Assembly (NCBI GenBank): GCA_013298845.1
Contig: JAAFJN010000029.1
Location: forward strand, 1-64,000
DNA: 64,000 nucleotides
Reading direction: 5' to 3'
From: Chitinophagales bacterium
GTDB lineage: Bacteria > Bacteroidota > Bacteroidia > Chitinophagales > Saprospiraceae
Part shown: in pieces, positions 83-52,065 of the stretch
Numbering within the stretch: position 1 is the first letter of the stretch
Layout of the letters: each line of letters begins with the position of its first letter
Translations under genes and position numbers: made by a program
Notes under the pieces: model-generated
What the model was told of the DNA's origin: nothing
The model's input: only the letters and a program-made list of their open reading frames with translations
Database searches by the model: none

Positions 83-1081
83 CTATTCCATCACCCGCGC
101 CCAGTTGTCTTGGGGCAAGTAGTGAATGGCTTCTTTTACACCGAGGGTCATGAGTAATAAGGCCAACCATTCCTGGGTGGTTTGGTCGTTGCCTCCGAAG
201 AGGGGTTTGCCGTTGATTAATTCAAATTTTACTTCGCCGCCCCAATGAATAAACTCCTCGAAACGGATACTGACCGGATCGGGTGCCAGACGCGGCACAA
301 AAGGGCAAGGCCGCTCTGCCGTTGTGCCGATTTTTTGCGGTTGCTTCATCAGGCTGTTCGGCACCGTAAAAATATCCAATGGAAACATGCCCGACTGCTC
401 CATACCTTCAAAAATACGCTCGTATTGTATGGAAAAACCGGGAATGGTTATAGACGCAAATCCCGCATTTTCGACGGGCGGGGCTTCATAAGCACCGTTT
501 TTTAGGTAAAATGGCCGGAAATGCCGTTTTTCAAAGTCAATCATCCATACTTCCGGCACCCCAGCCGCAGCATAACGCTGGAGCCGGGTTCCAAAATCGA
601 AAACACGCATATTAGGCGATACTACCTCCATGATAAAGTCGGGTGCTCCATCAAAATATAGATCATGCTGGCGGTGCTGATTTTCGGGCCGATACACGTA
701 AATATCGGGCATAAAAACGTCGGTGCCCAATTTGACCGCCATCGTCCCTCCCCACGCGTTGACCCGTTGCAGGTACAGGTCCATGCGCAGGTCGGCGGCC
801 AATTTTTGAACGCGATAATGGGGTTCAACAACGCCAAAATCCGCCAACGGCCCTGGCCCATCGCTCCGCCCAAATACATCAATCATGGCATCTTTTAATA
901 CCTCGCGGGGCACGAGTGCGGCTACTGCTTCAGCCCCTAACTGCTGCACCATAAAAGCCAATGCCATCGCCGATTTGTGCAGGCTACCACCGAGAATGAG
1001 GCGGCCGTCCACTAATTCGGCCTTGTGCTTGGGGAGCGCTTCGTGGAAACGGTAACGGTTTTGCATGGTTATTTTTAGCAT
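83..1081 (-). CDS. Uma2-family (DUF820) PD-(D/E)XK nuclease-like protein with an extra C-terminal domain
   Basis: The middle of the protein (about residues 120-195) carries the Uma2 core: PDIYVY, then PDFIMEVVSP, then RLQRYAAAGVPEVWMID, as in the restriction-endonuclease-like DUF820 family. Usual members are about 190 residues; this one has 332. The last 60 residues (RFEEFIHWGGEVKFELINGKPLF...) resemble the N-terminal Uma2 segment that defines the 'ELVDGRLILGG' strand near residue 23, so the protein looks like one complete unit plus the start of a second. Initiation is at codon 1 or at Met6. A possible promoter lies just upstream. The biological role of Uma2 proteins is not settled; they are often present in many copies per genome. 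Confidence 0.8.
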   Translation of the reverse strand: MLKITMQNRYRFHEALPKHKAELVDGRLILGGSLHKSAMALAFMVQQLGAEAVAALVPREVLKDAMIDVFGRSDGPGPLADFGVVEPHYRVQKLAADLRMDLYLQRVNAWGGTMAVKLGTDVFMPDIYVYRPENQHRQHDLYFDGAPDFIMEVVSPNMRVFDFGTRLQRYAAAGVPEVWMIDFEKRHFRPFYLKNGAYEAPPVENAGFASITIPGFSIQYERIFEGMEQSGMFPLDIFTVPNSLMKQPQKIGTTAERPCPFVPRLAPDPVSIRFEEFIHWGGEVKFELINGKPLFGGNDQTTQEWLALLLMTLGVKEAIHYLPQDNWARVME

Positions 1082-5228: not shown

Positions 5229-6842
5229 ATGCTACAACGATTTGATCGCTACGAACCTTTTATTTTTATCGCTTTATTGCTGCTGTGGTTGCTGCCGGTG
5301 CTCGGTCATGATTATTTCGTTACGGGCGACGGGCCGTGCCATTTGTACAATTCGCGGTTATTACTGGATTGGTGGACGAGCCGCAACCGCGATTTTTTCC
5401 TGCATTTTTACAGCATTAACAAAAATATTGATCCCAACCTTATTTTTAACCTGATCACCACTCCCCTGCTCGCTGTTTTTAGTCCCACGACCACCGAGAA
5501 GATTTTTTTTGGGGTCTACGTGGTGACCTTTTGCGCGGGTTTTCGGTATTTTATTGGTCAAATCAATCCCTCAGCGCGTTTTTTGGCGCATATAGGGTTG
5601 CTGTTTTGTTACCACCGTTTACTGATGTCCGGTTTTTTAAATAACGCCATGAGTTTGGCCGTGTGGTTTTGGGTAGCGGGTTGGTGGTGGAAAAACAAGG
5701 ACCAAAGCGGTACGCGGATGCTGCTCATTGGTACGTTGTGGTTTTTGCTGCTGTACACGACCCATCCGATGGGATATTCCTATGCCTTGATGACGATTGG
5801 CGGGCTGTTGACGGGTGCTTTTGCGTTGGATATGCGCCAAAATACCGTTGGGGCGGCTTGGGCAACGGCCTGGAATCGGGGTAAAAAACTGCTCCTGATG
5901 ACCTTGCCTTCCCTGATTTTGTCCGTGCAATTTGCACTGCGGCGTAGTTGGTCGCAAGACACGCGGGTGCACGATATCAACGCGACGTTGAACGGTATTG
6001 GCCATGCGTCTTCGCTGCGCACGATGGATTCCAGCGAACGTCATTTGGCTTTTGCGGTGGCCATTACCTGCGCGGTGTTTTTAATTATGGCCATTTACCA
6101 GCGGTTAAAGGCCCGCGTTTGGCATCCCGCCGATGGACTTTTGCTGTTTATTGGACTGGTGGTGGCGACAACTTTGGTTCCGCCGAGTAGTTTTTCGGGC
6201 GGCCTGGAGGTTCCGTTGCGCATGGGCATGATTCCGTTTTTTGCTTTTTTGATGTGGAGTGCCACGGCAACGTTTTCGGATTGGGCCAAATGGCTGGGTT
6301 CGGTTGCCGCTACGGTATTGGTCCTTGGATTTTTGTACGTGCGCATGCCTTTGTACGAACGGGCTTCGGTGTACGCGGCGGAAGTGCGGACTTGTGCTCG
6401 TTTTATCCACGACCGTTCTACTTTATTGGCGTTGAACTACAATTGGAGCGGTATTTTACCCAACGGACAACCCCTCAACGACGGGGCCTGGTTGTTTAAC
6501 CACGTGGATTGTTACCTCGGTACGGACCGGACGATGGCGATTTCGGATAATTACGAAACGAATTACGGGTATTTCCCCATTATTTCGAGGGGCGAAACGG
6601 AGATGTACCAACACACTTCGGAGGGGGGCATTACTTTTGACCACCGTCCGCCGCGCGCGAATATTTTGGATTATAACCGCCGAACGGGTCAATTCATTGA
6701 CTATGTTTTGTTGCTGTGTTATACCGATGCGGATCAAAATCACCCTTACACCCAGGAAATTAGGACGCAATTGGCGCAGGGATACGATAAGATATTTACT
6801 TCGGAGCAGGGGCGTGCGGTGTTGTATAAGGCGAAACCGTAG
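5229..6842 (+). CDS. Polytopic membrane protein, glycosyltransferase (GT-C)-like
   Basis: The protein has 537 residues. The first transmembrane helix (FIFIALLLLWLLPVLG) is followed by a loop with GDGPCHLYNSRLLLDWW, then about nine further hydrophobic segments to residue 380, then a soluble C-terminal part of about 150 residues. An acidic loop after helix 1 followed by many helices is reminiscent of lipid-phosphate-sugar dependent GT-C enzymes, but no diagnostic motif is certain, so the function stays open. It is monocistronic and is followed by a palindromic repeat module. The start is fixed by the promoter seven bases upstream. Confidence 0.7.
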   Translation: MLQRFDRYEPFIFIALLLLWLLPVLGHDYFVTGDGPCHLYNSRLLLDWWTSRNRDFFLHFYSINKNIDPNLIFNLITTPLLAVFSPTTTEKIFFGVYVVTFCAGFRYFIGQINPSARFLAHIGLLFCYHRLLMSGFLNNAMSLAVWFWVAGWWWKNKDQSGTRMLLIGTLWFLLLYTTHPMGYSYALMTIGGLLTGAFALDMRQNTVGAAWATAWNRGKKLLLMTLPSLILSVQFALRRSWSQDTRVHDINATLNGIGHASSLRTMDSSERHLAFAVAITCAVFLIMAIYQRLKARVWHPADGLLLFIGLVVATTLVPPSSFSGGLEVPLRMGMIPFFAFLMWSATATFSDWAKWLGSVAATVLVLGFLYVRMPLYERASVYAAEVRTCARFIHDRSTLLALNYNWSGILPNGQPLNDGAWLFNHVDCYLGTDRTMAISDNYETNYGYFPIISRGETEMYQHTSEGGITFDHRPPRANILDYNRRTGQFIDYVLLLCYTDADQNHPYTQEIRTQLAQGYDKIFTSEQGRAVLYKAKP

Positions 6843-6897
6843 GAACCGTGCGCACCTTCCGGCTCTCAACAACCGCGCACTCCGGGGTTCCCGGCAG

Positions 6898-7045
6898 AAA
6901 CCTGCCAAATCTTTCAGATTTTGCAGGTTGGCACGATCGTGGAGGCGGGCCAACTAAGGAACGCGGGATAAAATTGGGGCAGGGTGCCTTGTTTCCCGGT
7001 ATTATCTCCTTAACGAGGGGTTTGAAACCCCTCGTTAAGGAGATA
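6898..7045. repeat. Repeat module, copy 1 (hairpin element plus 43-bp perfect palindrome)
   Basis: It contains the element AACCTGCCAAATCT-TTC-AGATTTTGCAGGTT with its tail GGCACGATCGTGGAGGCGGG (6898-6952), then a GCGGGATAAAATTGGGGCAG segment, then a 43-bp palindrome at 7003-7045 with 21-bp arms (TATCTCCTTAACGAGG...). All three parts recur at 7775-7984. Confidence 0.85.
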
Positions 7046-7619: not shown

Positions 7620-7774
7620 GTTTTTATATTGTTGTTTAAATCCATGAAACCTACATAGTTAGAACCATTGATTGTCACGTCGAACTTATATCGGTTTGGT
7701 AACAGTTGGAAACTGTTATTTTCCATCCCCTCTTTAAAAATCCGATGACCCAATTCTTTGACGGATTGTTCCGA

Positions 7775-7984
7775 TGCGGGCGCGGGATAAAATGGGGTAA
7801 GGTACCAGTTTACCGATATGTATCTCCTTAACGAGGGGTTTGAAACCCCTCGTTAAGGAGATACATACCGGGAGAATTGTTCCTGCTGCGCGGGACAAAA
7901 TTGGGGCAAGGTTCCGGGGTTCCCGGTAGAAACCTGCCAAATCTTTCAGATTTTGCAGGTTGGCACGATCGTGGAGGCGGGCCA
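7775..7984. repeat. Repeat module, copy 2
   Basis: The 43-bp palindrome recurs at 7821-7863, here with arms that extend a little further (TATGTATCTCC.../...GGAGATACATA). The CTGCCAAATCT hairpin element with the GGCACGATCGTGGAGGCGGG tail recurs at 7929-7984. The order of parts differs from copy 1. The remaining gene-free DNA (7620-7774 and 7985-8146) shows nothing else; short frames across it are judged non-coding. Confidence 0.85.
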
Positions 7985-8146
7985 CCGGAATTTGATTTGG
8001 AGCAATGGACGCAGCCGAAGCATGATAAAAAACAATGTAGGTTTGTACATAAGTTTACCAAACCAATTTGCACAAGTTTTCAGATTGAGCCAACTTTATC
8101 CTCCGGCGGAAAAAATCCTTTCTAACCATTTAAAATCAAGAAAATC

Positions 8147-8662: not shown

Positions 8663-9340
8663 TAAAAAGAATAGCAGCAACTGAACGTATCAGTCACTGC
8701 TATTACTCTCCGGTCAGGGCAACGGTAAAATTTTTGTTACACAGTTAATCGGTTTAATAAAAGGAGTTTAGCCGTGTACATTAGATTTTGGTTTTTTGAG
8801 TTGTTTTCAAGATCAGGTTGGAATAAACAAGTTTAATTTTTTTTCAAAAGGTAATTTGAGATTGTTCACTTGCATTTAGTGTTTTCTCAGCAATATGTAG
8901 GTTTAATTTTTCAGGTTAATTGGGGTATTTTCAAGGTTTTTCAGGGCAATTCTTCAAGGTATTAGAGGGGTATTCTCTTGATTTTCGGGGGTATTTTCAA
9001 GGTTTTTCGGGGCCATTTCCTGGCGTTTGGGGGTGCTTTCTGGTTGAATGGCGTGTTTCACGCGGTAATTTTGGGGGTCTTCATCGTAATCGGTTATTTA
9101 GCGTTATCACAAGGTTCTCCGGGGCTATTTTCATGGTATGGTTGAGTCAACCTTCATTCAGTAATTTGGGGTTATGTTTTCCGGTCTTCAATGTCTAAGT
9201 GTTGTTTTCACTCCGTGTGTTCACTTGTTTCTGATTGATGATACAAATGTACGTTCGCCCCGATACACCATACAAGTGTACCGGGGCGAAAGGTGCGTAT
9301 CGGCGGGTGAATTGTTGGGTTTGGGAGGGTGAAAAAATTC
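8663..9340. repeat. Gene-free stretch with an imperfect 66-bp G/T-rich repeat
   Basis: The string GGGTATTTTCAAGGTTTTTC occurs at about 8922-8943 and 8988-9008, 66 bases apart, amid related GGGG-TATT-TTC segments to about 9060. The open frame across it (8920-9198) is Phe/Gly-rich low complexity and reads as a by-product of the repeat. No convincing gene or structured RNA is seen in the rest. Confidence 0.5.
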
Positions 9341-12300
9341 CTACTTTACCGCATCCGCTAAAATTTGTTCCAGTTCCGTTAAAGCGTAATAACTAATGTG
9401 ATCCGTGGCGACTTCTTCAACGCGGTCGAAACCACCCGGAACCGCCTGCATACTGTTTACCCGCACGGCCATATCGTTGGGTTCGTTGCCAAAAATGGCG
9501 TAATCGGCCAAAATATACACGCCGCGTTCTTTTAAACCCGTGAGCACTTGTTTAAAGACCGATTCGTCTTCGCCCGCCGATGATTCAATAATGGAGGTAT
9601 TACCGGCCACTAACCAATACGGAATATCGCTGCTGCGTTGTCCGCCGTTGAGTTGTTGTAAAAATTCGGACTTGGGGTCCATTTGTTTTAAAGTGCGGAA
9701 TACGCTGCCGTCAATGCCTTTCCACAGTTGGCTGAGCAAACCTAAATACGGTTTTATTTTGCTAATGCCGTTTAAACCCAATGTTATCCAGCCAAATAAC
9801 CGCTCCCGGAATTCATTGACCTCCGAACCGCCGTTGGGCGTACCCAACAGGACTAATTTGGAGACCAATGACGCAGCGTCCAATTGCTCCATCATGTAAC
9901 GGGAGACCAGACCTCCCATCGAATGGGCCAATACCACGAGACTTTTGTCAGGAACGCCAGCGTTGCGCAACAATTGCAGCAATTTGCCCGCCGTTTCTTC
10001 GATGGGGGTATCCAAGTTTTCGTATTCGTAGGTCAAAATGGCCGAAAATTGCCGCCGCGTCAATTCGGATTTTTGAATAAACGCCAACGGATTGTCCAAA
10101 TCGCCAATAATCCCGTGTACCATCAGCAAAACCGGACCGGCGGCGACTTTGGCTTTAATCTCGGCGAGAGCGGCCTGATCGGCGGCGTTGTTCGGATGGC
10201 CGCGATAAACGCTCGAAATTTGGCCGCTTTCGTCCAACAACGACAAGCGGTTAATATTGGGCCGACCGGTGAGTTTGCTCCACACCAATTTTTGGAAATA
10301 CATTTTAAAGGCCGTTCCCAACGAGCGCTGGCCTTCCACTTCCTGCCCCAACGAACCCGACGTTTCCGCCGGTAACTCGTTGATACACACGCGGCCCTGT
10401 TCGTCGGTGTAACCAATGGGGTAATACACCTGATGCTCTGGGTCGTAAGCCATGGGCAAAATGGATTCGTCCACTTCCAATGCGTCGGCGGGTGTAATGA
10501 CCAGCGGCGCATCTTTCGAGATGGTGCCCTGTACGTTGGTTAATTCCACAATGCTGATATGGGTATCGGGCGAGGCTGCTACTCCACGCGCAAATACTTC
10601 GGGGCGGGTATCGGCTTCGGCCCAAAAACTGAGCGGCGGTACACCCGTTAAACCGCGTTTTTGCCCGGAATCTTTGGGTGTAATGGCTTCCACGGTGGCC
10701 GAAAAACCGCCGGGAGCCGATATGCTAAAAGCCCCAAATGATTTGGTCAAACCCTCGGTGAGTTCTTGTTTGGGTTTTGGAATGGCAATTTGGAGGGGTA
10801 TTTTTATGGTGTACCAATCGTCTTTTTGCAAAGGTTCGTCGCTGTCGAAACCCGCCGAACGGGTAATATCGAGTTGGATGCCCGATTGCTGGTATTTAGA
10901 GAGGTCAAATTGACGGGTAGAAACGAAAATAATGAGGTAGTCCTGCACTTCGGTGACCCCTACTTTGGCCCAATCTTTATCAATTGTGAGCGGAATGGCG
11001 CTGTACGATTTACCCCCGGTATTAAATTTCAAGTCCACAAAAGGAGATTCTCCGTCGCCGCCAATCTTTTGCACCCGCAATAAACCGGGATCAATGGCGC
11101 ATTTGGCATCGCAATACAAGGCACCCACCCAACACGGTTCTCCCTGCGGCGAAATCCGCACTTTGATGGCGGGTTGTTGCATTTTGCCGTTGGCTAAGGC
11201 TTTAGCGCTTACCCGAACCACTTCGGGATAAGGCAAACCGAGCGATGCAGGTTGCACCACGTTAAAACTGCTTTCGGGGATACTGTTGAGCGTATCTGGC
11301 CCAAAAGACACGCCTTCGAGGGTTTTTATATCCACTTTTACCGAGTTTCGGGGTAATTCAGTTTGTGGATTATCCAATTTTAGCACGTATTCATACCGCA
11401 GAACTTTGGCCAAATCGCCCATAAACGCTTGCGCGCTGGGCGTGCGCATAAAGAGCGGAGTCAGGCTGCCGGGACGGGTTAATACGTAACAATCGGAGCC
11501 GCTGCGGTCTTTTAATACGCTGATATTCAAACCCGCGACTTCCTTGGGTTTGGCCAAACGACCATACTGGGGTTTGTGTTCGGAAAATGCAGCGGTGATA
11601 GTTGCCCGCATCGTTTCGGGCATTTCGGGGCTGATTCCGATTTTTATTTCGGGAAATGGCATTTGGTGCACCGTGGCCATCAGGGTGAGGTTGGCCTCGT
11701 CATCGGGGGAAAAAGAACCGCTATCGAGGACGCTGTACGTACTTTCTACCCGCACAATGGGAATGATACGGCCATCATCGAGGCGCAGGGATGCCGGGCC
11801 ATAATCGGGGCTGATCCAGCCGTTAATAGTACCGGCGTTCACGCGCCATTCGCCACGTTCAAACATGACCTGATAGCGCAATTCGGGCGTTTTTAACTCG
11901 TTACGCAGAAAATAAAGGTTTTCATCGTCCATTTCGGTGCTGCCCAACTGCGGAATTTGGTTATCCACCCGGGCGCGCACCGACATTTCGGCGCGGCGGA
12001 TCAGTTCACCGTACGTGATATTCACCCCACCCTGGCGCAAGGTTTCCAAAACGCTCCAGGTAAACACCCCACGTTTGCGTTTGCGGCCGCTGGGGTCTTC
12101 AAAAAATATTTCGTAAGCGCTTTCACTGTCCCGCGCCCCGGAAATATTGATATAACGAGCGTGGCGCAAACCACCTTCGGGGTTCACCGTGGTGCGGCCG
12201 TTGAGGGGCGCGTAAAAGCAATTGCCCTTGGGATCAAAACCGTGAATGGTGGACAAAGGTGGCCCTTGCACCGCCATCCGGGACACTGGTGCCTCGTCGT

Positions 12301-12838
12301 TCATGCTGCGGGTGACGGTGCCGGAGTGACAACAGTCAATAAAAGCGAGAAAATGCACACCTTTTTGCGTCGCCGAAGGTTCTTTCCCTTCCAATGCGCT
12401 GGCAATGAGGTAGCCCAATTCTTTGTCCAACAAATCGGGAACACTCTTAATGCGGCTGTCCACGCAACAAATGGTTTGGAGCATATCGCCGGGCGCGTAC
12501 CCTTTAAATTCGGCGGGCGCGGTTACGGTCGAGCCGTGTCCGCTGTAATAAAGCAGGCAAAAATCGCCGTCCTGGGCCTGTTTAAAATGGTCAAAAGCCG
12601 CAATGATGTTTTGGCGGGTTGGTTTTTGAAAGTCAACGTTACTCAATTCGTCAATATTGCCAACATCTTCACCGTTGGGGGCGAGGAGATACAGCGGTTT
12701 CCACTCCAAATCCCCTTGGCTTTTGCACAGGTGTTGGAAATAATCGGCTACGTCTATGGCATCGTTCACGCAGCCGTTCAACGGCATGAAAGGGTAAGCG
12801 TTGATGCCGATAATAACAGAATAGAGTTTTTTTGACAT
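9341..12838 (-). CDS. Caspase-fold protease (peptidase C14) fused to a C-terminal alpha/beta hydrolase, 1165 aa
   Basis: The N-terminal 300 residues form a metacaspase-like domain: YSVIIGINAYPFMPLNGCVNDA at the start, His101 in YYSGHG and Cys170 in DCCHSG. Residues about 330-880 are a long beta-rich region not recognised. From residue 902 an alpha/beta hydrolase follows: VLLMVHG oxyanion strand, nucleophile Ser973 in AHSMGG, LLGTPNGG, a likely acid in NDMAVRVNS (Asp1121) and His1147 in TDHISYY, like triacylglycerol-lipase/PGAP1-type enzymes. No signal peptide is seen, so it is probably cytoplasmic. It lies 61 bases downstream of the methyltransferase gene on the same strand and may share its transcript. 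Protease plus esterase suggests a proteolytically controlled lipase or a self-destructive effector (inference). Confidence 0.85.
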   Translation of the reverse strand: MSKKLYSVIIGINAYPFMPLNGCVNDAIDVADYFQHLCKSQGDLEWKPLYLLAPNGEDVGNIDELSNVDFQKPTRQNIIAAFDHFKQAQDGDFCLLYYSGHGSTVTAPAEFKGYAPGDMLQTICCVDSRIKSVPDLLDKELGYLIASALEGKEPSATQKGVHFLAFIDCCHSGTVTRSMNDEAPVSRMAVQGPPLSTIHGFDPKGNCFYAPLNGRTTVNPEGGLRHARYINISGARDSESAYEIFFEDPSGRKRKRGVFTWSVLETLRQGGVNITYGELIRRAEMSVRARVDNQIPQLGSTEMDDENLYFLRNELKTPELRYQVMFERGEWRVNAGTINGWISPDYGPASLRLDDGRIIPIVRVESTYSVLDSGSFSPDDEANLTLMATVHQMPFPEIKIGISPEMPETMRATITAAFSEHKPQYGRLAKPKEVAGLNISVLKDRSGSDCYVLTRPGSLTPLFMRTPSAQAFMGDLAKVLRYEYVLKLDNPQTELPRNSVKVDIKTLEGVSFGPDTLNSIPESSFNVVQPASLGLPYPEVVRVSAKALANGKMQQPAIKVRISPQGEPCWVGALYCDAKCAIDPGLLRVQKIGGDGESPFVDLKFNTGGKSYSAIPLTIDKDWAKVGVTEVQDYLIIFVSTRQFDLSKYQQSGIQLDITRSAGFDSDEPLQKDDWYTIKIPLQIAIPKPKQELTEGLTKSFGAFSISAPGGFSATVEAITPKDSGQKRGLTGVPPLSFWAEADTRPEVFARGVAASPDTHISIVELTNVQGTISKDAPLVITPADALEVDESILPMAYDPEHQVYYPIGYTDEQGRVCINELPAETSGSLGQEVEGQRSLGTAFKMYFQKLVWSKLTGRPNINRLSLLDESGQISSVYRGHPNNAADQAALAEIKAKVAAGPVLLMVHGIIGDLDNPLAFIQKSELTRRQFSAILTYEYENLDTPIEETAGKLLQLLRNAGVPDKSLVVLAHSMGGLVSRYMMEQLDAASLVSKLVLLGTPNGGSEVNEFRERLFGWITLGLNGISKIKPYLGLLSQLWKGIDGSVFRTLKQMDPKSEFLQQLNGGQRSSDIPYWLVAGNTSIIESSAGEDESVFKQVLTGLKERGVYILADYAIFGNEPNDMAVRVNSMQAVPGGFDRVEEVATDHISYYALTELEQILADAVK

Positions 12839-12899: not shown

Positions 12900-13460
12900 T
12901 CAAACCGTGCACGTAATCACCAAAGCAGGCGGCAAATTGAGCGGAATAAAATCCGTATCAGTGTTGCCAAACACCCGGCGGTACAGTGGAATGAGCAGCG
13001 GGGAATAATGAAATTGTATAAACATGCCACCCGCCCGAAGCCAATTTCGGCACTTGGTGGTAATATCTAAGGTAAGGGCTTCGGGCAGCATCACAAATGG
13101 GATACCCGAAACGAAATAATCCACTTTTTCGACGGCATACGTTTCAAAATAACGCTCCATTTCGGTCGCTGAATCGTGGATGAGCACCAGCCGAGGTTCG
13201 TTAGCAAACGCTACTTTAAGATGTTCGATAAAAACATCGTTAATTTCAAACACAAATAACCGCGCATCGGGGCCGATCCGATCCAAAATATACTGCGTAA
13301 TCACCCCATCTCCCGGCCCCAATTCTACCACAACTTTGGTTTTTTTGGGGTCAATTTTTTGCACAATAGCCTGACACAAATAACGCGAACTACGCGCTAT
13401 ACTTCCCGTATTCCGCAGGTTGCGGATACTTTCTCTCAATAATTGAAACCGATCCGCCAC
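12900..13460 (-). CDS. SAM-dependent methyltransferase, phospholipid N-methyltransferase-like
   Basis: A class I methyltransferase of 186 residues with motif I VVELGPGDGVITQYIL (about 43-58) and acidic motif II LFVFEIND. Similarity of layout (short, GPGDG..T, later YFVSGIPF, RAGGMFIQFHYSP) points to the PmtA/rRNA-dimethylase-like group that methylates phosphatidylethanolamine or related lipids; an rRNA target is less likely because there is no C-terminal domain. The start is GTG at 13460, one base after the nadC stop, so translation is probably coupled to nadC. Confidence 0.75.
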   Translation of the reverse strand: MADRFQLLRESIRNLRNTGSIARSSRYLCQAIVQKIDPKKTKVVVELGPGDGVITQYILDRIGPDARLFVFEINDVFIEHLKVAFANEPRLVLIHDSATEMERYFETYAVEKVDYFVSGIPFVMLPEALTLDITTKCRNWLRAGGMFIQFHYSPLLIPLYRRVFGNTDTDFIPLNLPPALVITCTV

Positions 13461-13461
13461 G

Positions 13462-14322
13462 TTACTTTACAATCTTCAAACTAAGGTCAAGTGGTTGTGC
13501 AGAATGCGTCAGAGCGCCCACGGAAACATAATCAACGCCGGTATGGGCGTATTTGCGCACCGACTGGAGGGTAATCCCGCCCGATGCTTCGGTCTCAAAC
13601 TTGCGATTTACCGTCGAAACGGCTTCGGCCAGAATGGGAATTTCGAAATTATCAAACATAATACGGGTTATTCCACCGGCTTCGAGCACTTCGTGTACTT
13701 CTACCAAATTGCGCACTTCCACCGTGATATTGAGTTGGAGGTTGTGTTCTTTTTGGTATTGGTGCGCCAATTGAATCGCCTTTGTAATGCCCCCGGCGGC
13801 GTCCGAGTGGTTGTCTTTAATCATCATCCAATCGTAGAGGCCCCAGCGGTAGTTTTCGCAACCGCCAATTTTGACCGCCCATTTTTCCAAAAAACGAATC
13901 AAAGGGGTGGTTTTGCGGGTATCGAGGATTTTAACGGGCAAATCGCCCACTTCAAAAGCAAACCGGCTGGCCAGGGTGGCAATACCACTCATGCGCTGCA
14001 TGGTGTTCAGCACGAGTCGTTCGGCCTGTAAAAGAGCGCGAGTATTGGCCTCCACTTCAAAAGCCACTTGCCCGAAAAAAACATCTTCGCCGTCTCTTTT
14101 GTTGATTTTAATGGAACAAGTGGGGTCAATATATTGAAAAATGCGCTCGGCCAGTTCTACCCCGGCTAATACGCCATAATCTTTAATTTTTAAAACGGCC
14201 CGGCTACGGCTGTCCGGAGAAATGCAGGCCATTGCAGTATGGTCGCCATCGCGGATATCTTCGTACAAACCTGCTTTGATAAAATCGGTAACCTGCTGCT
14301 CTGTTATTTGTGGGAGTAACAT
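13462..14322 (-). CDS. nadC: Nicotinate-nucleotide pyrophosphorylase (quinolinate phosphoribosyltransferase)
   Basis: The protein has 286 residues, the standard NadC length (EC 2.4.2.19). It makes nicotinate mononucleotide from quinolinate and PRPP in NAD synthesis. Signatures include GDHTAMACI near the N-terminus, ERLVLNTMQRMSGIAT, the DTRKTTP phosphate/quinolinate-binding motif, KIGGCENYRWGLYD, MIKDNH and, near the end, EASGGI and VDYVSVGALTHS. It is the first gene of a probable three-gene unit with the methyltransferase and the caspase fusion. nadA and nadB are not in the window. Confidence 0.96.
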   Translation of the reverse strand: MLLPQITEQQVTDFIKAGLYEDIRDGDHTAMACISPDSRSRAVLKIKDYGVLAGVELAERIFQYIDPTCSIKINKRDGEDVFFGQVAFEVEANTRALLQAERLVLNTMQRMSGIATLASRFAFEVGDLPVKILDTRKTTPLIRFLEKWAVKIGGCENYRWGLYDWMMIKDNHSDAAGGITKAIQLAHQYQKEHNLQLNITVEVRNLVEVHEVLEAGGITRIMFDNFEIPILAEAVSTVNRKFETEASGGITLQSVRKYAHTGVDYVSVGALTHSAQPLDLSLKIVK

Positions 14323-16279: not shown

Positions 16280-17128
16280 CTAATACTTCACCTTCATTTT
16301 TTTCTTGGGCCGGTTGCGGTCGTAGAGTACGACCTCGTAGTTACCGGGCGGGAGTTTGGTGGTTTTAAAAAAGAAGGAATATTTGCCTTGGCCGGGCGGA
16401 TGCGGGTATTGATCAAAAATAGTACGCACGGTATCGCCTTTTTCGTTCAGCACCAACACCGAAATGAGGGTGGAATCGTTGGTGTGGTAAATAAAATCAC
16501 CTTCTACGGAAAGCGGTTCGCGGGTCATAACCGGACGTGGCCGGGCCACCCGGCGGGGCGGCGGCGGGGCCGTTGGTCGGGCGTAATTCACCTTGTATTC
16601 GGGTTTGGAGATATTTAACAACTGGCAGGCGGTACTGAGCAAACCCGGGTGGCGCAAACCGGCGGGATTCATACTATCGGTCATGCACCAAATGGCCAAT
16701 TGCGCCTCTTCGTGTGCCCATAGTTTTTGACCGGCGATGTATTCGGCCATTTTCAGGGTGTTTCCCTGCGCCATTTTCCCCAATTGATAGGCCATTTCTT
16801 TGATGGGGGAACCATGGGAGGCTTCGGCACAAACGCCGTTCAAACGGATGAATTGCTTTTTGGCTTTTAGGGCAAATTCTTCGCTTTTTAGCACAATAAT
16901 GTCCTGATAAGCACTGTCGGCGCACTCAAAAATGTGCCCGGCGGGGATTTGTATCCGAATGGGATCGTCGGTGAGGCGTTCAAAATGCACCGAAATGCAC
17001 TGGCCGGAGTGCCCACCCTGGCTTTTGACCGATACCAAAATTTTACCCTCGGCAAGTGCTTGGGTGAAAAGTTGGGCTTGTGCAAACAGGGCATTGGGTA
17101 AAAACAAAAAAAAGAGTAAAAATCGCAT
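16280..17128 (-). CDS. Secreted hypothetical protein with a Pro-rich linker, 282 aa
   Basis: Starting at the ATG at 17128 gives a clean signal peptide (MRFLLFFLFLPNALFAQ). The first 170 residues include the helical KEMAYQLGKMAQGNTLKMAE and the Cys/Trp-rich AIWCMTDSMNPAG. A Pro/Arg linker (PPPPRRVARPRP, about 200) leads to a C-terminal beta-sandwich of about 80 residues (ISVLVLNEKGDTVRTIF, LPPGNYEVVLYD) like bacterial FlgD/Ig-type add-on domains. It is probably a cell-envelope protein; function unknown. A 51-bp minisatellite sits directly upstream. Confidence 0.7.
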   Translation of the reverse strand: MRFLLFFLFLPNALFAQAQLFTQALAEGKILVSVKSQGGHSGQCISVHFERLTDDPIRIQIPAGHIFECADSAYQDIIVLKSEEFALKAKKQFIRLNGVCAEASHGSPIKEMAYQLGKMAQGNTLKMAEYIAGQKLWAHEEAQLAIWCMTDSMNPAGLRHPGLLSTACQLLNISKPEYKVNYARPTAPPPPRRVARPRPVMTREPLSVEGDFIYHTNDSTLISVLVLNEKGDTVRTIFDQYPHPPGQGKYSFFFKTTKLPPGNYEVVLYDRNRPKKKMKVKY

Positions 17129-17138
17129 GTAAACCATT

Positions 17139-17254
17139 TATTTCCAAATATAAAACTCTATTTGGAAATAACGTACAATTCAAACCACTTATTTCCAAAT
17201 ATAAACCCATACCTGGAAATAACGCTCTTTTTTTACCACTTATTTCCAAATATA
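17139..17254. repeat. 51-bp tandem minisatellite with internal hairpins
   Basis: TATTTCCAAATATA starts at 17139, 17190 and 17241, exactly 51 bases apart. Each of the first two copies is followed by its inverse partner (TATTTGGAAATA at 17159-17170; CTGGAAATA at 17213-17221), giving an 11-bp stem in the first unit. It lies in the upstream region of the 282-aa secreted protein gene. Confidence 0.8.
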
Positions 17255-17357
17255 GCCGCGCAAGCACCCAAAAAAGCACAAAAAAAGGGGTACGACACCC
17301 GACCAAATGCCGGATATAGTACCCCAAAAGGAATGAGGTTACGTTTTGTTAGATGAA

Positions 17358-48562: not shown

Positions 48563-51500
48563 ATGAATAACTACAACTTACTCATTGAAAAATTAGACGC
48601 GTTCATTCGCAAATTTTACATCAACCACCTGCTGCGCGGCTCTTTGTACACCGTCGGAACGGTATTGGGTTTGTTCGTATTATTGAACGTTCTGGAATAC
48701 TATTTTTACTTTTCTACCACCGTCAGAACCGTATTTTTCTGGAGTTTTGCGGGCATTTCGGCCCTGGCACTCTGGAATTGGGTCGCCGTTCCGCTGATGC
48801 ATTATTTCCGTCTGGGCAAAATTATCAGCCGCGAACAGGCCGCTTTGATTATTGGTGACCATTTTGGCAACGTAAAAGACAAGTTGATCAATATTTTGCA
48901 GTTGAAAGAGCAAAGCAACAACGCCATTTACGCCGAGTTGATCAACGCCAGTATCAACCAAAAAAGTGAAGAAATCAAGTTGGTGCCCTTCCAGGCAGCC
49001 ATTGACCTGGGCAAAAACCGCCAACACCTGCGCTGGGCACTCCCGCCGCTGGCCCTGTTGTTGTTTTTGATGCAGTGCGCCCCCAGTATTCTCCGCGAAG
49101 GCTCCATGCGCCTGTGGAATGCCAACCAGGAATTTGAACGCCCCGCGCCGTTTAAATTCATGATCAACCCCGATAGCCTCCGCACTGTACAGTTCTCCGA
49201 TTACGTGCTGAAAGTAAAAGTAGAAGGCAATACCCTCCCCAACGAGGTATTTATTGACCTCGGTAAAGTGCAATACCGCCTCTCTAAAGATGCCGCCAAC
49301 GAATTTTCTTATAAATTTACCAACGTACAGGAAGATACCGAATTCAAATTGTTCGGTGGTGGCGTCGAAAGCCGCGAACTCACTTTGGCCGTACTGCGCA
49401 AACCCAGTATCGCCTCTTTCGACGTAAAACTCGATTTCCCCGAATACATTGGCCGCCCCGACGAACAATTGGCCAACGTAGGTGATTTGGTGGTGCCGCA
49501 GGGAACTAACCTCAACTGGGTTTTTAATGCCCAAAGCACCGAAAATATGCGCCTCAACTTCGGTGGCGATAACGGCAACGAAGCCAAACGTTTTGATGAT
49601 AATTTGTTCGCTTTCAGCCGCCGCGCCATGAAAGACGAAACGTATAAAATATTCATTTCCAATAATTTACTCCCCAACGCTGATTCGGTGGCCTATACCA
49701 TTACGGTCATTCCCGACCTGAATCCACAAATTACCGTGGAGGAATTTAAGGACAGCACCAACCGCACCCAAATCTATTTTGCGGGCGATGCCAGCGACGA
49801 TTATGGCCTCAATAATCTAACGTTTAATTATCAGGTTAAAAAAGCCAAAGGGGGCCAATTGCCCATGAATACCCTCAAAATTGAAAAAACACCGGGCAAA
49901 CAAACCGCTTACCAGTACGCCTGGGAAATAAAAGACCTGTCGCTGGAACCCGGTGACGAACTGAATTATTACTTCGAAGTACTGGATAACGACGCCGTTA
50001 ATGGTTCAAAAAGTGCCCGCACCCAGGTGATGCAGTACCGCGTTCCTACGTTGCAGGAGTTCCGCCAAGAACAAGCCGCCAACAGCGAAGAAATCAAAAA
50101 GAACCTCGAAAAAGCGCTGAAAGAGAACATTAAAGTGCAGGAAGACATCAAAAAACTGCGCGATAAAGTATTGCAGAAAAAAGAACTCGACTGGCAGAGC
50201 CGCAAGGAATTGGAGCGTCTTATGAACCGCCAACAACAGTTGCAACAGGAAATCGAACAGGCCAAAAAGTCGTTTGAAGAAAACATGGAGCAGCAAAAAG
50301 ACATGAACCAGCCCAAAACGGAGGAATTGCTGCAAAAACAGGAAGAGTTGCAAAAAATGTTCGATGAAGTGATGAGTGAAGAGATGAAACAACTCATGGA
50401 AGACATTCAAAAAATCCTGGAGGAAATGAACAAAGATCAGGCCCTCAAGGAAATGGAAGATATGCAGTTGTCGAACGAAGAATTGAACAAAGAACTCGAT
50501 CGTTTGCAGGAACTCTACAAACAGTTGGACGTGGAGCAAAAATTGGAAGACCAAATCAACCGCCTCGAGGAATTGGCCAAAGAACAGGAAAAACTGGCCA
50601 ATGACACCGAGAATAGCAATAAACCACAGGAAGAATTGGAGAAAAAACAAGAGGAATTGAAGAAAGAGATGGAAGATATTGCCAAACAACAAGAAGAATT
50701 GGAAAAGAAAAACGAAGAGTTGGAGCGGAAACAAAAAATTGAAGACGTGAAAAAAGAAATGGAGGAAACCCAGGAAGATATGGAGGGTGCTCAGGAAGAT
50801 ATGAAAGGCGGCGACGATGACAACAAACAAAAGCAGGAGCAGGGCAACAAAAGCGCCAGCAAAAAGCAGAAAAAAGCCGCCAACAAAATGAAAGATATGG
50901 CCAACAAAATGAAGGCCGGTAAAGCCAAGGGGGAAATGGAAGAGTTGGAAGAAGACCTGGCCACCATCCGGCAATTGTTGGAAAACTTGGTGGGCTTGTC
51001 GTTTGGGCAGGAACAAAACATGAAGGAAATTAAAACGGTGAACCCCGCTGCGCCGTACTACGTGCAACTCACGCAACAGCAGTTCAAACTTCAGGATGAT
51101 TTCCGCCTCGTGGAAGACAGTCTTCAGGCATTGGCCAAACGCCAGTTCAAAATTGAAGGCATTATCACCGAAAAAGTAACCGAAATTAAAGGCTCCATGA
51201 AGCGTACCCTCGCCGAATTGGAAGAACGCAATACACCGGTCGCCAACTCGGAGCAGCAGAATTCGATGAAAAACCTCAACGATCTGGCGCTCCTGCTCGC
51301 CGAAGCCATGCAAAATATGCAACAGCAAATGGCGGGTGGTATGCCGGGTAATCAGGCTTGCCAAAAACCCGGCGATAAAGGCGATGGTAAAGGCCGCAAG
51401 CCCTCGAACAAAATGTCGAAAGGCCAGGGCGAAATGGGCGAAAGCCTCGAACAAATGCGCGACCGGATGAAAAAAGGGGCCATTCCGAGCAAAGAATTTG

Positions 51501-51916
51501 CCCAAATGGCCGCCAAACAAGCCGCCATGCGCAATGCACTGCGCGAATTGCAAAAAGGCAAACAAGAGCAGGGCAAAGGCAGTAAAGTACTCGATGAAGT
51601 GATGGAGCAAATGAACGAAATCGAAAATGATCTCGTGAACAAACGCCTCACCAACGAAACCATGAAACGCCAGGAGCAAATCATGATTCGCCTGCTGGAA
51701 GAAGAACGCGCCGAACGCCAACAGGAAGAGGACGAAAAACGCGAGGCCCAAACGGCACAACAACAAAATGCCAAAATGCCGCCCGCGTTGGAAGAATACC
51801 TCAAAAAACGCCGCGCCGAAGCCGATCAGTTCCGCACGGTATCACCTGCGTTGAAACCTTATTACAAAAATTTGGTAGAAGAATACCTGAAAGGGGTGAG
51901 TGGCGGCGGTAAATAA
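48563..51916 (+). CDS. DUF4175-family giant membrane protein with long coiled coil, 1117 aa
   Basis: Two N-terminal helices (about 25-45 and 52-75) and another near 155 precede an extracytoplasmic region with an Ig-like domain (about 190-500). From about 510 to 960 the protein is extremely rich in Glu, Lys and Gln with heptad pattern (EELNKELDRLQELYKQLDVEQKLEDQINRL...), a long coiled coil, then a Gly/Lys/Met-rich part and a C-terminal helical end. DUF4175 proteins are widespread in Bacteroidota with no assigned function. The antisense strand is open for nearly 600 codons here because of the coil's codon bias; that frame is an artefact. Confidence 0.9.
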   Translation: MNNYNLLIEKLDAFIRKFYINHLLRGSLYTVGTVLGLFVLLNVLEYYFYFSTTVRTVFFWSFAGISALALWNWVAVPLMHYFRLGKIISREQAALIIGDHFGNVKDKLINILQLKEQSNNAIYAELINASINQKSEEIKLVPFQAAIDLGKNRQHLRWALPPLALLLFLMQCAPSILREGSMRLWNANQEFERPAPFKFMINPDSLRTVQFSDYVLKVKVEGNTLPNEVFIDLGKVQYRLSKDAANEFSYKFTNVQEDTEFKLFGGGVESRELTLAVLRKPSIASFDVKLDFPEYIGRPDEQLANVGDLVVPQGTNLNWVFNAQSTENMRLNFGGDNGNEAKRFDDNLFAFSRRAMKDETYKIFISNNLLPNADSVAYTITVIPDLNPQITVEEFKDSTNRTQIYFAGDASDDYGLNNLTFNYQVKKAKGGQLPMNTLKIEKTPGKQTAYQYAWEIKDLSLEPGDELNYYFEVLDNDAVNGSKSARTQVMQYRVPTLQEFRQEQAANSEEIKKNLEKALKENIKVQEDIKKLRDKVLQKKELDWQSRKELERLMNRQQQLQQEIEQAKKSFEENMEQQKDMNQPKTEELLQKQEELQKMFDEVMSEEMKQLMEDIQKILEEMNKDQALKEMEDMQLSNEELNKELDRLQELYKQLDVEQKLEDQINRLEELAKEQEKLANDTENSNKPQEELEKKQEELKKEMEDIAKQQEELEKKNEELERKQKIEDVKKEMEETQEDMEGAQEDMKGGDDDNKQKQEQGNKSASKKQKKAANKMKDMANKMKAGKAKGEMEELEEDLATIRQLLENLVGLSFGQEQNMKEIKTVNPAAPYYVQLTQQQFKLQDDFRLVEDSLQALAKRQFKIEGIITEKVTEIKGSMKRTLAELEERNTPVANSEQQNSMKNLNDLALLLAEAMQNMQQQMAGGMPGNQACQKPGDKGDGKGRKPSNKMSKGQGEMGESLEQMRDRMKKGAIPSKEFAQMAAKQAAMRNALRELQKGKQEQGKGSKVLDEVMEQMNEIENDLVNKRLTNETMKRQEQIMIRLLEEERAERQQEEDEKREAQTAQQQNAKMPPALEEYLKKRRAEADQFRTVSPALKPYYKNLVEEYLKGVSGGGK

Positions 51917-52065
51917 CCATCCCCGATTTACAAACCATTCAGGTTTTTCGCCTCAACGAACAAGGAAAATACGTCGGTATGCGCCCCGCTGTTACGGGCG
52001 ATTTACTGACTACCCCAATTATACCCAATTTGACGGTGAATGTAACGGATGTTTTTATGCTGTAA
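51913..52065 (+). pseudogene. Remnant of a Uma2-family gene (C-terminal part only)
   Basis: Directly behind the DUF4175 stop is a 50-codon open stretch with no start: IPDLQTIQVFRLNEQGKYV, then TTPIIPNLTVNVTDVFML and TAA at 52063-52065. This matches the C-terminal end of Uma2 proteins (PELQTLEVFRL..., LTSPLFPGL...LDEIF). The N-terminal two thirds are missing, so a gene or fragment was inserted and truncated. It is not a copy of the 83-1081 gene, whose end differs. Confidence 0.7.

Follow-up and report, generated by a model that had tools for sequence, protein, structure and literature searches.

A caspase–lipase fusion protein as a candidate proteolytically activated effector of bacterial cell death

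Introduction

What is the function of a protein in which a caspase-fold protease and a lipase-like alpha/beta hydrolase belong to one and the same chain? This question is raised by a gene from a Chitinophagales bacterium of the Saprospiraceae (assembly GCA_013298845.1), located in the first 64,000 nucleotides of contig JAAFJN010000029.1, the whole stretch of DNA that was analysed and that is referred to here as the window. A preliminary description had proposed that the protease, attached in cis, frees or activates the hydrolase. When all the evidence is considered, the fusion is on balance probably a proteolytically activated, envelope-destroying lipase effector of a regulated cell-death system, whose role would most plausibly be anti-phage or anti-invader. 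Animal caspases reach the membrane via separate substrates. Here, protease and membrane enzyme form one molecule and the candidate processing sites can be read from an alignment, so that the wiring of bacterial death proteases to membrane attack becomes directly testable by point mutants.

Domain architecture, catalytic residues and distribution

The fusion gene, present as one copy in its genome, is an open reading frame (ORF) of 1165 residues without internal stop (Table 1). Pfam recognises Peptidase_C14 at residues 8–304 (E 1.6e-22, 80.8 bits against a cut-off of 21.4), and in the C-terminal part DUF7379 (residues 904–1064, E 1.1e-10) and a PGAP1-type alpha/beta hydrolase (E 1.1e-6); between the two enzymes the Pfam scan lists no family. 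The His-Cys dyad lies in the p20 domain, the feature by which metacaspases and orthocaspases (peptidase C14) are recognised, and the hydrolase carries a Ser-Asp-His triad with a nucleophile elbow (S973 within AHSMG, D1122, H1147). In an alignment of 64 of the full-length proteins, H101, C170, S973 and D1122 are conserved in every row and H1147 in 63; the fusion is therefore not due to chance. Thus, the uninterrupted frame, the Pfam matches and the conservation bear out the two enzymes named in the preliminary description, and His101, Cys170, Ser973 and His1147 stand as it had placed them; its Asp1121 is an Asn, the Asp being residue 1122.

An AlphaFold2 model computed with the 64 aligned rows reached a mean predicted local distance difference test score (pLDDT) of 74.3 and a predicted template modelling score of 0.59. 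Its first 21 Foldseek matches are 3bij and metacaspase chains from plants, including Arabidopsis metacaspases 9 and 4, and from trypanosomes, which corresponds to a caspase-hemoglobinase fold nearest to metacaspases, and from rank 22 on the matches are chiefly bacterial lipases (Burkholderia, Pseudomonas, Proteus). As modelled, the hydrolase is of lipase-type fold with a complete triad, and lipid hydrolysis is its predicted activity; helices at residues 1007–1041, partly of low confidence, take the position of a lipase lid and may resemble one. The middle (about 330–860) is for the most part predicted to be folded, being mixed alpha/beta and beta-rich, and is divided here into MID and the MID2 stretch, which contains the low-pLDDT segments 723–744, 749–759 and 827–843. 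None of the 50 Foldseek rows shown, all of them caspases, lipases or other hydrolases, matches the middle, in agreement with the earlier remark that some 550 residues between the enzymes belong to no recognised family.

Of 510 relatives confirmed in a genome scan, itself listing at least 593 stretches, the top 80 were kept, and 70 of these 80 loci contain the hydrolase domain and thus the whole fusion, distributed over seven phyla. Among 97 family ORFs, 80 show the order caspase–middle–MID2–hydrolase (two with an in-frame nSTAND1), 14 caspase and middle only, and three caspase–middle–MID2; for counting, five (L034, L037, L038, L041 and L042) were set aside and 13 were short, which leaves 79 full-length proteins. 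The fusion is also plasmid-borne, in Rhizobium, Deinococcus, Nostoc and Anabaena. A tree of 73 rows comprises 39 from Cyanobacteriota, 12 from Bacteroidota, six from Pseudomonadota, three from Chloroflexota, one each from Acidobacteriota, Planctomycetota and Actinomycetota, and ten unlabelled; by this quick tree method the window protein clusters with Terrimonas, Pedobacter and Flavobacterium (support 99) on a long branch. Closer to the window, 17 of 60 relatives gave any match, with whole fusions in G047, G021, G052 and, twice, G022, and a partial one in G013, the window's own being whole. A phage or prophage origin of the whole fusion was rejected: phage records gave no match, and 32 viral-contig loci match parts only, mostly the caspase.

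Conserved arginines in predicted-disordered segments

Positions in low-confidence segments of the model (162 alignment positions) were examined in 36 dereplicated rows, taking as conserved those with at least 80% identity. Outside the caspase, six qualify, namely Arg 660, 726, 751 and 838 together with Ser839 and Asn1023, and Arg thus accounts for four of six conserved low-confidence positions versus one of 100 equally conserved ordered ones (p 1.5e-5). The excess holds in five of six re-runs, made at 70, 80 and 90% identity with all 64 rows or with the 25 non-cyanobacterial ones. The window protein has Gln at alignment column 726 and an Arg two residues on (R728), and R660, R751 and R838 are present, as is R177 in the caspase. 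These sites, R177 included, share a common [ST]-R-small setting, in which Thr or Ser mostly precedes (less so at 838) and a small residue follows. The conserved linker arginines are accordingly worded here as candidate cleavage sites, a proposal consistent with the Arg/Lys cleavage preference of orthocaspases (PMC6426788, cited, like the other papers below, for the part of it that was available).

Sensor-type genes beside the fusion in relatives

With profiles built for this analysis, a partner was defined as a STAND, CHAT or second-caspase gene in frame or within two genes (of at least 150 residues). By this definition 47 of the 79 full-length loci have one (28 of 48 after dereplication at 60% identity), a count biased towards CHAT by a CHAT2 profile built partly from fusion neighbours. 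Partner-type genes make up 60 of 266 genes at a distance of two or less versus 7 of 280 at a distance of four or more (p 9e-14), and 36 of 160 versus 3 of 196 in the dereplicated set (p 7e-11). The neighbourhood is thus non-random. When nSTAND1 and second-caspase genes alone are counted, 27 of the 79 loci have one within two genes, and the next same-strand downstream gene is nSTAND1 in 21 of 45 cases. These loci contain 38 caspase-nSTAND1 partner proteins, whose dyad (GHG, DCC[FY][AS]G) was recognised by eye in the displayed stretches, the strict CHSG pattern being present in none of the 38. The two genes may even be joined: on a Nostoc plasmid (L053:3491-12664) a single ORF of 3057 residues contains the whole fusion, a second caspase and nSTAND1, plus a periplasmic-binding domain, and in L090 fusion and nSTAND1 likewise share one ORF. 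No consistent housekeeping context accompanies the fusion across relatives.

Together with R838, directly before the hydrolase, these STAND/CHAT neighbours and the linker arginines lend the cis logic of the preliminary description support at the level of sequence inference.

Exchange of effector domains and a gasdermin-like neighbour

A hidden Markov model built from the 64-row alignment finds MID in relatives with other C-terminal domains. The caspase-middle chassis is joined to a GDSL lipase in L037 (L038 falls below the cut-off), to Amidase_2, an N-terminal peptidoglycan amidase, plus GDSL lipase in L225:4585-8436 and L230:7232-11140, and to GDSL lipase, MpaB/Lcp and DUF5995 domains in L231:7087-12165, and it occurs without any enzyme in L039, L040, L055, L109, L123, L128, L132–L134 and L224. 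The lipase is therefore swapped for other envelope-directed effectors on the same chassis.

In the three nearest relatives (L056, L104, L114) the fusion is immediately preceded by a gene encoding about 255 residues, which in L109 and L224 likewise stands before the chassis without an enzyme. Its product was modelled poorly (mean pLDDT 55.5); the first 16 of 360 Foldseek matches of that model are nevertheless gasdermins or gasdermin-like proteins, three with E ≤0.001. At the sequence level the support is weak: the PADLOC model bGSDM matches four of ten sequences (E 0.00096, 0.0014, 0.014 and 0.049) and not the other six, missing most of the family at E 0.01; the PDB sequence matches to gasdermin 7n50 (E 0.065 and 0.21) were outscored by an ankyrin chain; and when profiles were compared with L234, a single true gasdermin of bacteria, the probability was 0.1. 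On the modelled fold, the neighbour is likely a divergent gasdermin, and the comparison with gasdermin-like effectors drawn at the outset appears apt. The gene is present in 6 of 395 genomes of the phylum; it was not found in the window genome (family profile and PADLOC bGSDM) nor in 59 relatives (family profile). A stretch related to this family is also seen at the C-terminus of a STAND protein (L109:5143-9069).

Gene surroundings in the window

The window holds one candidate for a sensor or protease partner, an LRR-Roc-COR-CHAT protein with a Roco-type GTPase switch, whose gene is co-oriented with the fusion and lies 4.7 kb downstream. L032 and L102 are among the relatives in which its CHAT subtype directly adjoins the fusion, and with 11 CHAT matches in the 6.37-Mb genome we estimate the chance of one lying within about 8 kb at ~3%; the protein is a possible partner. 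The second large downstream gene in three related cyanobacteria (L091, L088 and L097) shares the strand of the fusion and encodes a Roc-COR protein.

Directly upstream of the fusion is a methyltransferase gene of the phospholipid N-methyltransferase type, as had been reported, its best NCBIfam model, ornithine-lipid N-methyltransferase OlsG, scoring 107 bits where the cut-off is 350. The lipid link suggested from this position was not upheld, since its homologues in relatives sit with OmpA/TPR and GldH lipoprotein genes and without the fusion: eight of ten fetched homologue stretches have a downstream GldH-type gene and seven an upstream OmpA/TPR-type gene (names taken from the single locus L182), and the fusion occurs only in G003. 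The methyltransferase was accordingly rejected as a lipid partner. G003, the closest relative, has the order nadC–methyltransferase–fusion, its contig ending 125 residues into the fusion. In G022 a methyltransferase homologue (L182:5501-6061) is found some 2 kb away from a further LRR-Roc-COR-CHAT relative (L182:8287-11655; 790 residues at 37% identity), the fusion being absent from the interval.

Elsewhere in the window, RLHDRANLQNLKDLAGF words are common to the spurious ORFs 6456-6953 (-), 7734-7985 (-) and 7877-8125 (+) and represent an interspersed intergenic DNA repeat, and short low-complexity repeats (GYFQGFSG; LYLEISG) occur in the intergenic ORFs 8920-9198 and 17043-17327. A very strong AT skew of 0.45 is seen at 50001-52000, within an ORF of 1117 residues (48563-51916, +), and a Uma2-type putative endonuclease is encoded at 83-1081 (-), close to the contig end.

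Table 1. Coordinates of the fusion, its domains and candidate sites, and of associated genes (window positions unless a locus is named)
Feature	Position	Strand	Basis or remark
Whole fusion gene (caspase, middle, lipase-like hydrolase), 1165 residues	9341..12838	-	ORF without internal stop; Pfam
Caspase domain, residues 8–304	11927..12817	-	Pfam Peptidase_C14, Foldseek, conservation
His101	12536-12538	-	
Cys170	12329-12331	-	
MID, residues about 330–690, folded, outside known families	10769..11851	-	Model; hidden Markov model from alignment
MID2 stretch, residues about 720–860, with Arg728, Arg751, Arg838	10259..10681	-	Low-pLDDT segments and alignment
Alpha/beta hydrolase, residues 864–1165	9344..10249	-	Pfam, Foldseek
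Ser973	9920-9922	-	
Asp1122	9473-9475	-	
His1147	9398-9400	-	
Arg177, candidate site in loop after Cys170 (VTR/SMN)	12308..12310	-	Basic in 36/36 dereplicated rows
Arg660, candidate site (DITR/SAG)	10859..10861	-	Basic in 36/36 dereplicated rows
Arg728, candidate site in MID2 stretch	10655-10657	-	Column 726 basic in 34/36
Arg751, candidate site in MID2 stretch	10586-10588	-	Column 751 basic in 33/36
Arg838, candidate site directly before hydrolase domain	10325-10327	-	Column 838 basic in 35/36
LRR-Roc-COR-CHAT protein, 964 residues	1743..4637	-	Pfam COR-A, COR-B, Roc, LRR, CHAT
Methyltransferase (OlsG/PmtA-like), probably outside the system	12900..13460	-	NCBIfam and relatives' loci
nadC, housekeeping neighbour, outside the system	13462..14322	-	TIGR00078, 277 bits, above cut-off
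Gasdermin-like family members	L056:9213-9974, L104:9215-9985, L114:9024-9779, L109:9106-9873, L224:8114-8974		
Further gasdermin-like family members	L225:13303-14067, L226:7927-8679, L227:6060-6842, L228:7527-8309		

Proposed mechanism and alternative explanations

From these elements we infer a mechanism in which the fusion would be made as a single-chain pro-enzyme whose caspase-middle part holds the lipase-like domain at rest. An upstream sensor would switch the caspase on; in relatives this may be the caspase-nSTAND1-WD40 protein or a CHAT protein, and the window genome might use the LRR-Roc-COR-CHAT protein close by or some other protein of the STAND/CHAT kind. The caspase, or a partner protease, would then cut after Arg, at R177 in its own loop and at R660, R728/R751 and R838 downstream, and these cuts would detach MID2 and free the lipase, which would hydrolyse membrane lipids, so that the cell dies or stops growing. 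A more elaborate version is put forward tentatively, with the balance of our judgement slightly against it in full: a self-processing protease-lipase zymogen that includes the executioner protease itself, four or more Arg cutting sites sharing a consensus, a blocking MID2 that is cut out and a membrane-destroying enzyme, which with STAND/CHAT sensors, and in one clade a divergent gasdermin, would form a pyroptosis-like pathway where lipase and pore-former are exchangeable on one caspase chassis.

Several observations weigh against an activated lipase effector of defence. The Arg thresholds were picked after looking at the data, the 25 non-cyanobacterial rows at 90% identity leave R660 only (1/1, p 0.04), and the conserved arginines could be binding sites instead. 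No recognised partner lies within two genes in 32 of the 79 full-length loci. The window gene is itself without an adjacent partner, no nSTAND1 or second-caspase ORF having been found in the window; three other genes separate it from the CHAT gene, and no STAND-caspase is known in the genome, where four nSTAND1 and eight caspase matches are at separate places. The gene follows nadC and the methyltransferase gene and adjoins a gluconokinase gene, and the whole fusion is not found in phage records or viral contigs.

How do other explanations fare with the same evidence? That the caspase cuts other proteins, such as the neighbouring gasdermin-like protein, while the hydrolase acts in parallel, uncleaved, and the arginines serve as contact sites for STAND/CHAT proteins, is unlikely in our estimation. 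A gasdermin-like gene immediately preceding the fusion (L056, L104 and L114) or adjoining the chassis that lacks the hydrolase (L109 and L224) fits this explanation, as does a basic residue in a like setting in six of nine gasdermin-like tails, recognised by eye (LATR/S, LEKR/S, LSTK/G, LDTK/T, LSTK/E, LDVR/E). However, no such gene is seen in the window genome, in the 59 relatives or at most fusion loci, and the arginines are found in predicted-disordered interdomain segments and not on conserved surfaces. It is less likely again that the same molecular steps belong to a developmental, stress or kin-recognition death programme with an internal or social trigger. Filamentous or aggregating organisms, Nostocales for example, do supply most rows (39 of the 64 are cyanobacterial), and allorecognition is a possible role of STAND-WD40 proteins (PMC10907252); accessory conflict genes nevertheless agree better with the plasmid carriage and with a distribution that is patchy within the genus, with few whole fusions.

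Finally, a housekeeping or scavenging esterase, with the caspase domain as scaffold and thioesters or other esters as substrates in the manner of PGAP1 or palmitoyl-thioesterase-like enzymes, seems very improbable. It would accommodate the weak similarity that Pfam reports to PGAP1, palmitoyl thioesterase and LCAT as well as the nadC and gluconokinase neighbours in the window, yet it is opposed by a caspase dyad kept in all 64 rows, by varied neighbourhoods favouring STAND/CHAT genes and by other envelope enzymes taking the place of the hydrolase on the same chassis. Overall, the protein is read here as probably a proteolytically activated lipase effector of a death system under STAND/CHAT control.

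Comparison with known systems

Parts of the proposed system are already known: the pairing of caspase and hydrolase genes (PMC7159879), a network of STAND proteins and caspases (PMC8195603), protease-gated nucleases (PMC12799240) and gasdermin systems (PMC13236601). A cis caspase-lipase fusion with a shared Arg consensus was not found described in searches of the open literature, subscription papers and preprints being outside the scope. An EACC1-type caspase conflict system was considered and rejected (NF047832 scored 25.1 bits, its cut-off being 140).

In the VMAP ternary conflict systems, a caspase in the VMAP part is always accompanied by a neighbouring alpha/beta-hydrolase gene, and the two are taken to operate together (PMC7159879). 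The likeness lies in this pairing and in the shared STAND and caspase vocabulary. However, the VMAP enzymes are separate genes within a MoxR-vWA-VMAP set, whereas the fusion unites both enzymes in a single chain, with some 550 residues between them and conserved linker arginines, and its relatives adjoin caspase-nSTAND1 or CHAT genes. The bDLD3-alpha/beta-hydrolase and EACC2-caspase systems likewise bring caspases, STAND proteins (nSTAND1 is named) and lipid-hydrolase effectors into one network; there, the effectors are coupled by adapter domains, and the available part of that paper describes no caspase-hydrolase fusion (PMC8195603). A further precedent is a Chitinophaga pinensis protein reported in 2012, a caspase homologue followed by Amidase_2 and a lipase, which L225 and L230 repeat on the chassis of the fusion; its lipase is, however, of GDSL type and not an alpha/beta hydrolase, and no sensor partner or processing sites are described in the part of the report available (PMC3501461).

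Proteolytically gated nucleases, including the caspase-nuclease loci (Canu), protect E. coli against phage (PMC12799240). A protease there frees a gated hydrolytic effector and thereby provides phage defence, as the gating proposed for the fusion would; the Canu effector is a metallo-beta-lactamase-fold nuclease encoded by a separate gene, while the fusion carries a lipase in cis. No nuclease was found by Pfam among ten window ORFs scanned around the fusion, no search of the whole neighbourhood with nuclease models having been made.

If the proposed reading is correct, a chassis shared by alpha/beta lipase, GDSL lipase, amidase and a neighbouring gasdermin would show that a single pathway can end either in lipid hydrolysis or in pore formation. 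The bacterial gasdermin and CARD-NLR systems differ from the fusion in that its membrane enzyme is fused to the caspase and that no gasdermin was found in the window genome. They nevertheless resemble it in a protease-activated membrane attack placed under a STAND/NLR-like sensor, as proposed here for the fusion, and in some CARD-NLR variants phospholipases replace gasdermins (PMC13236601).

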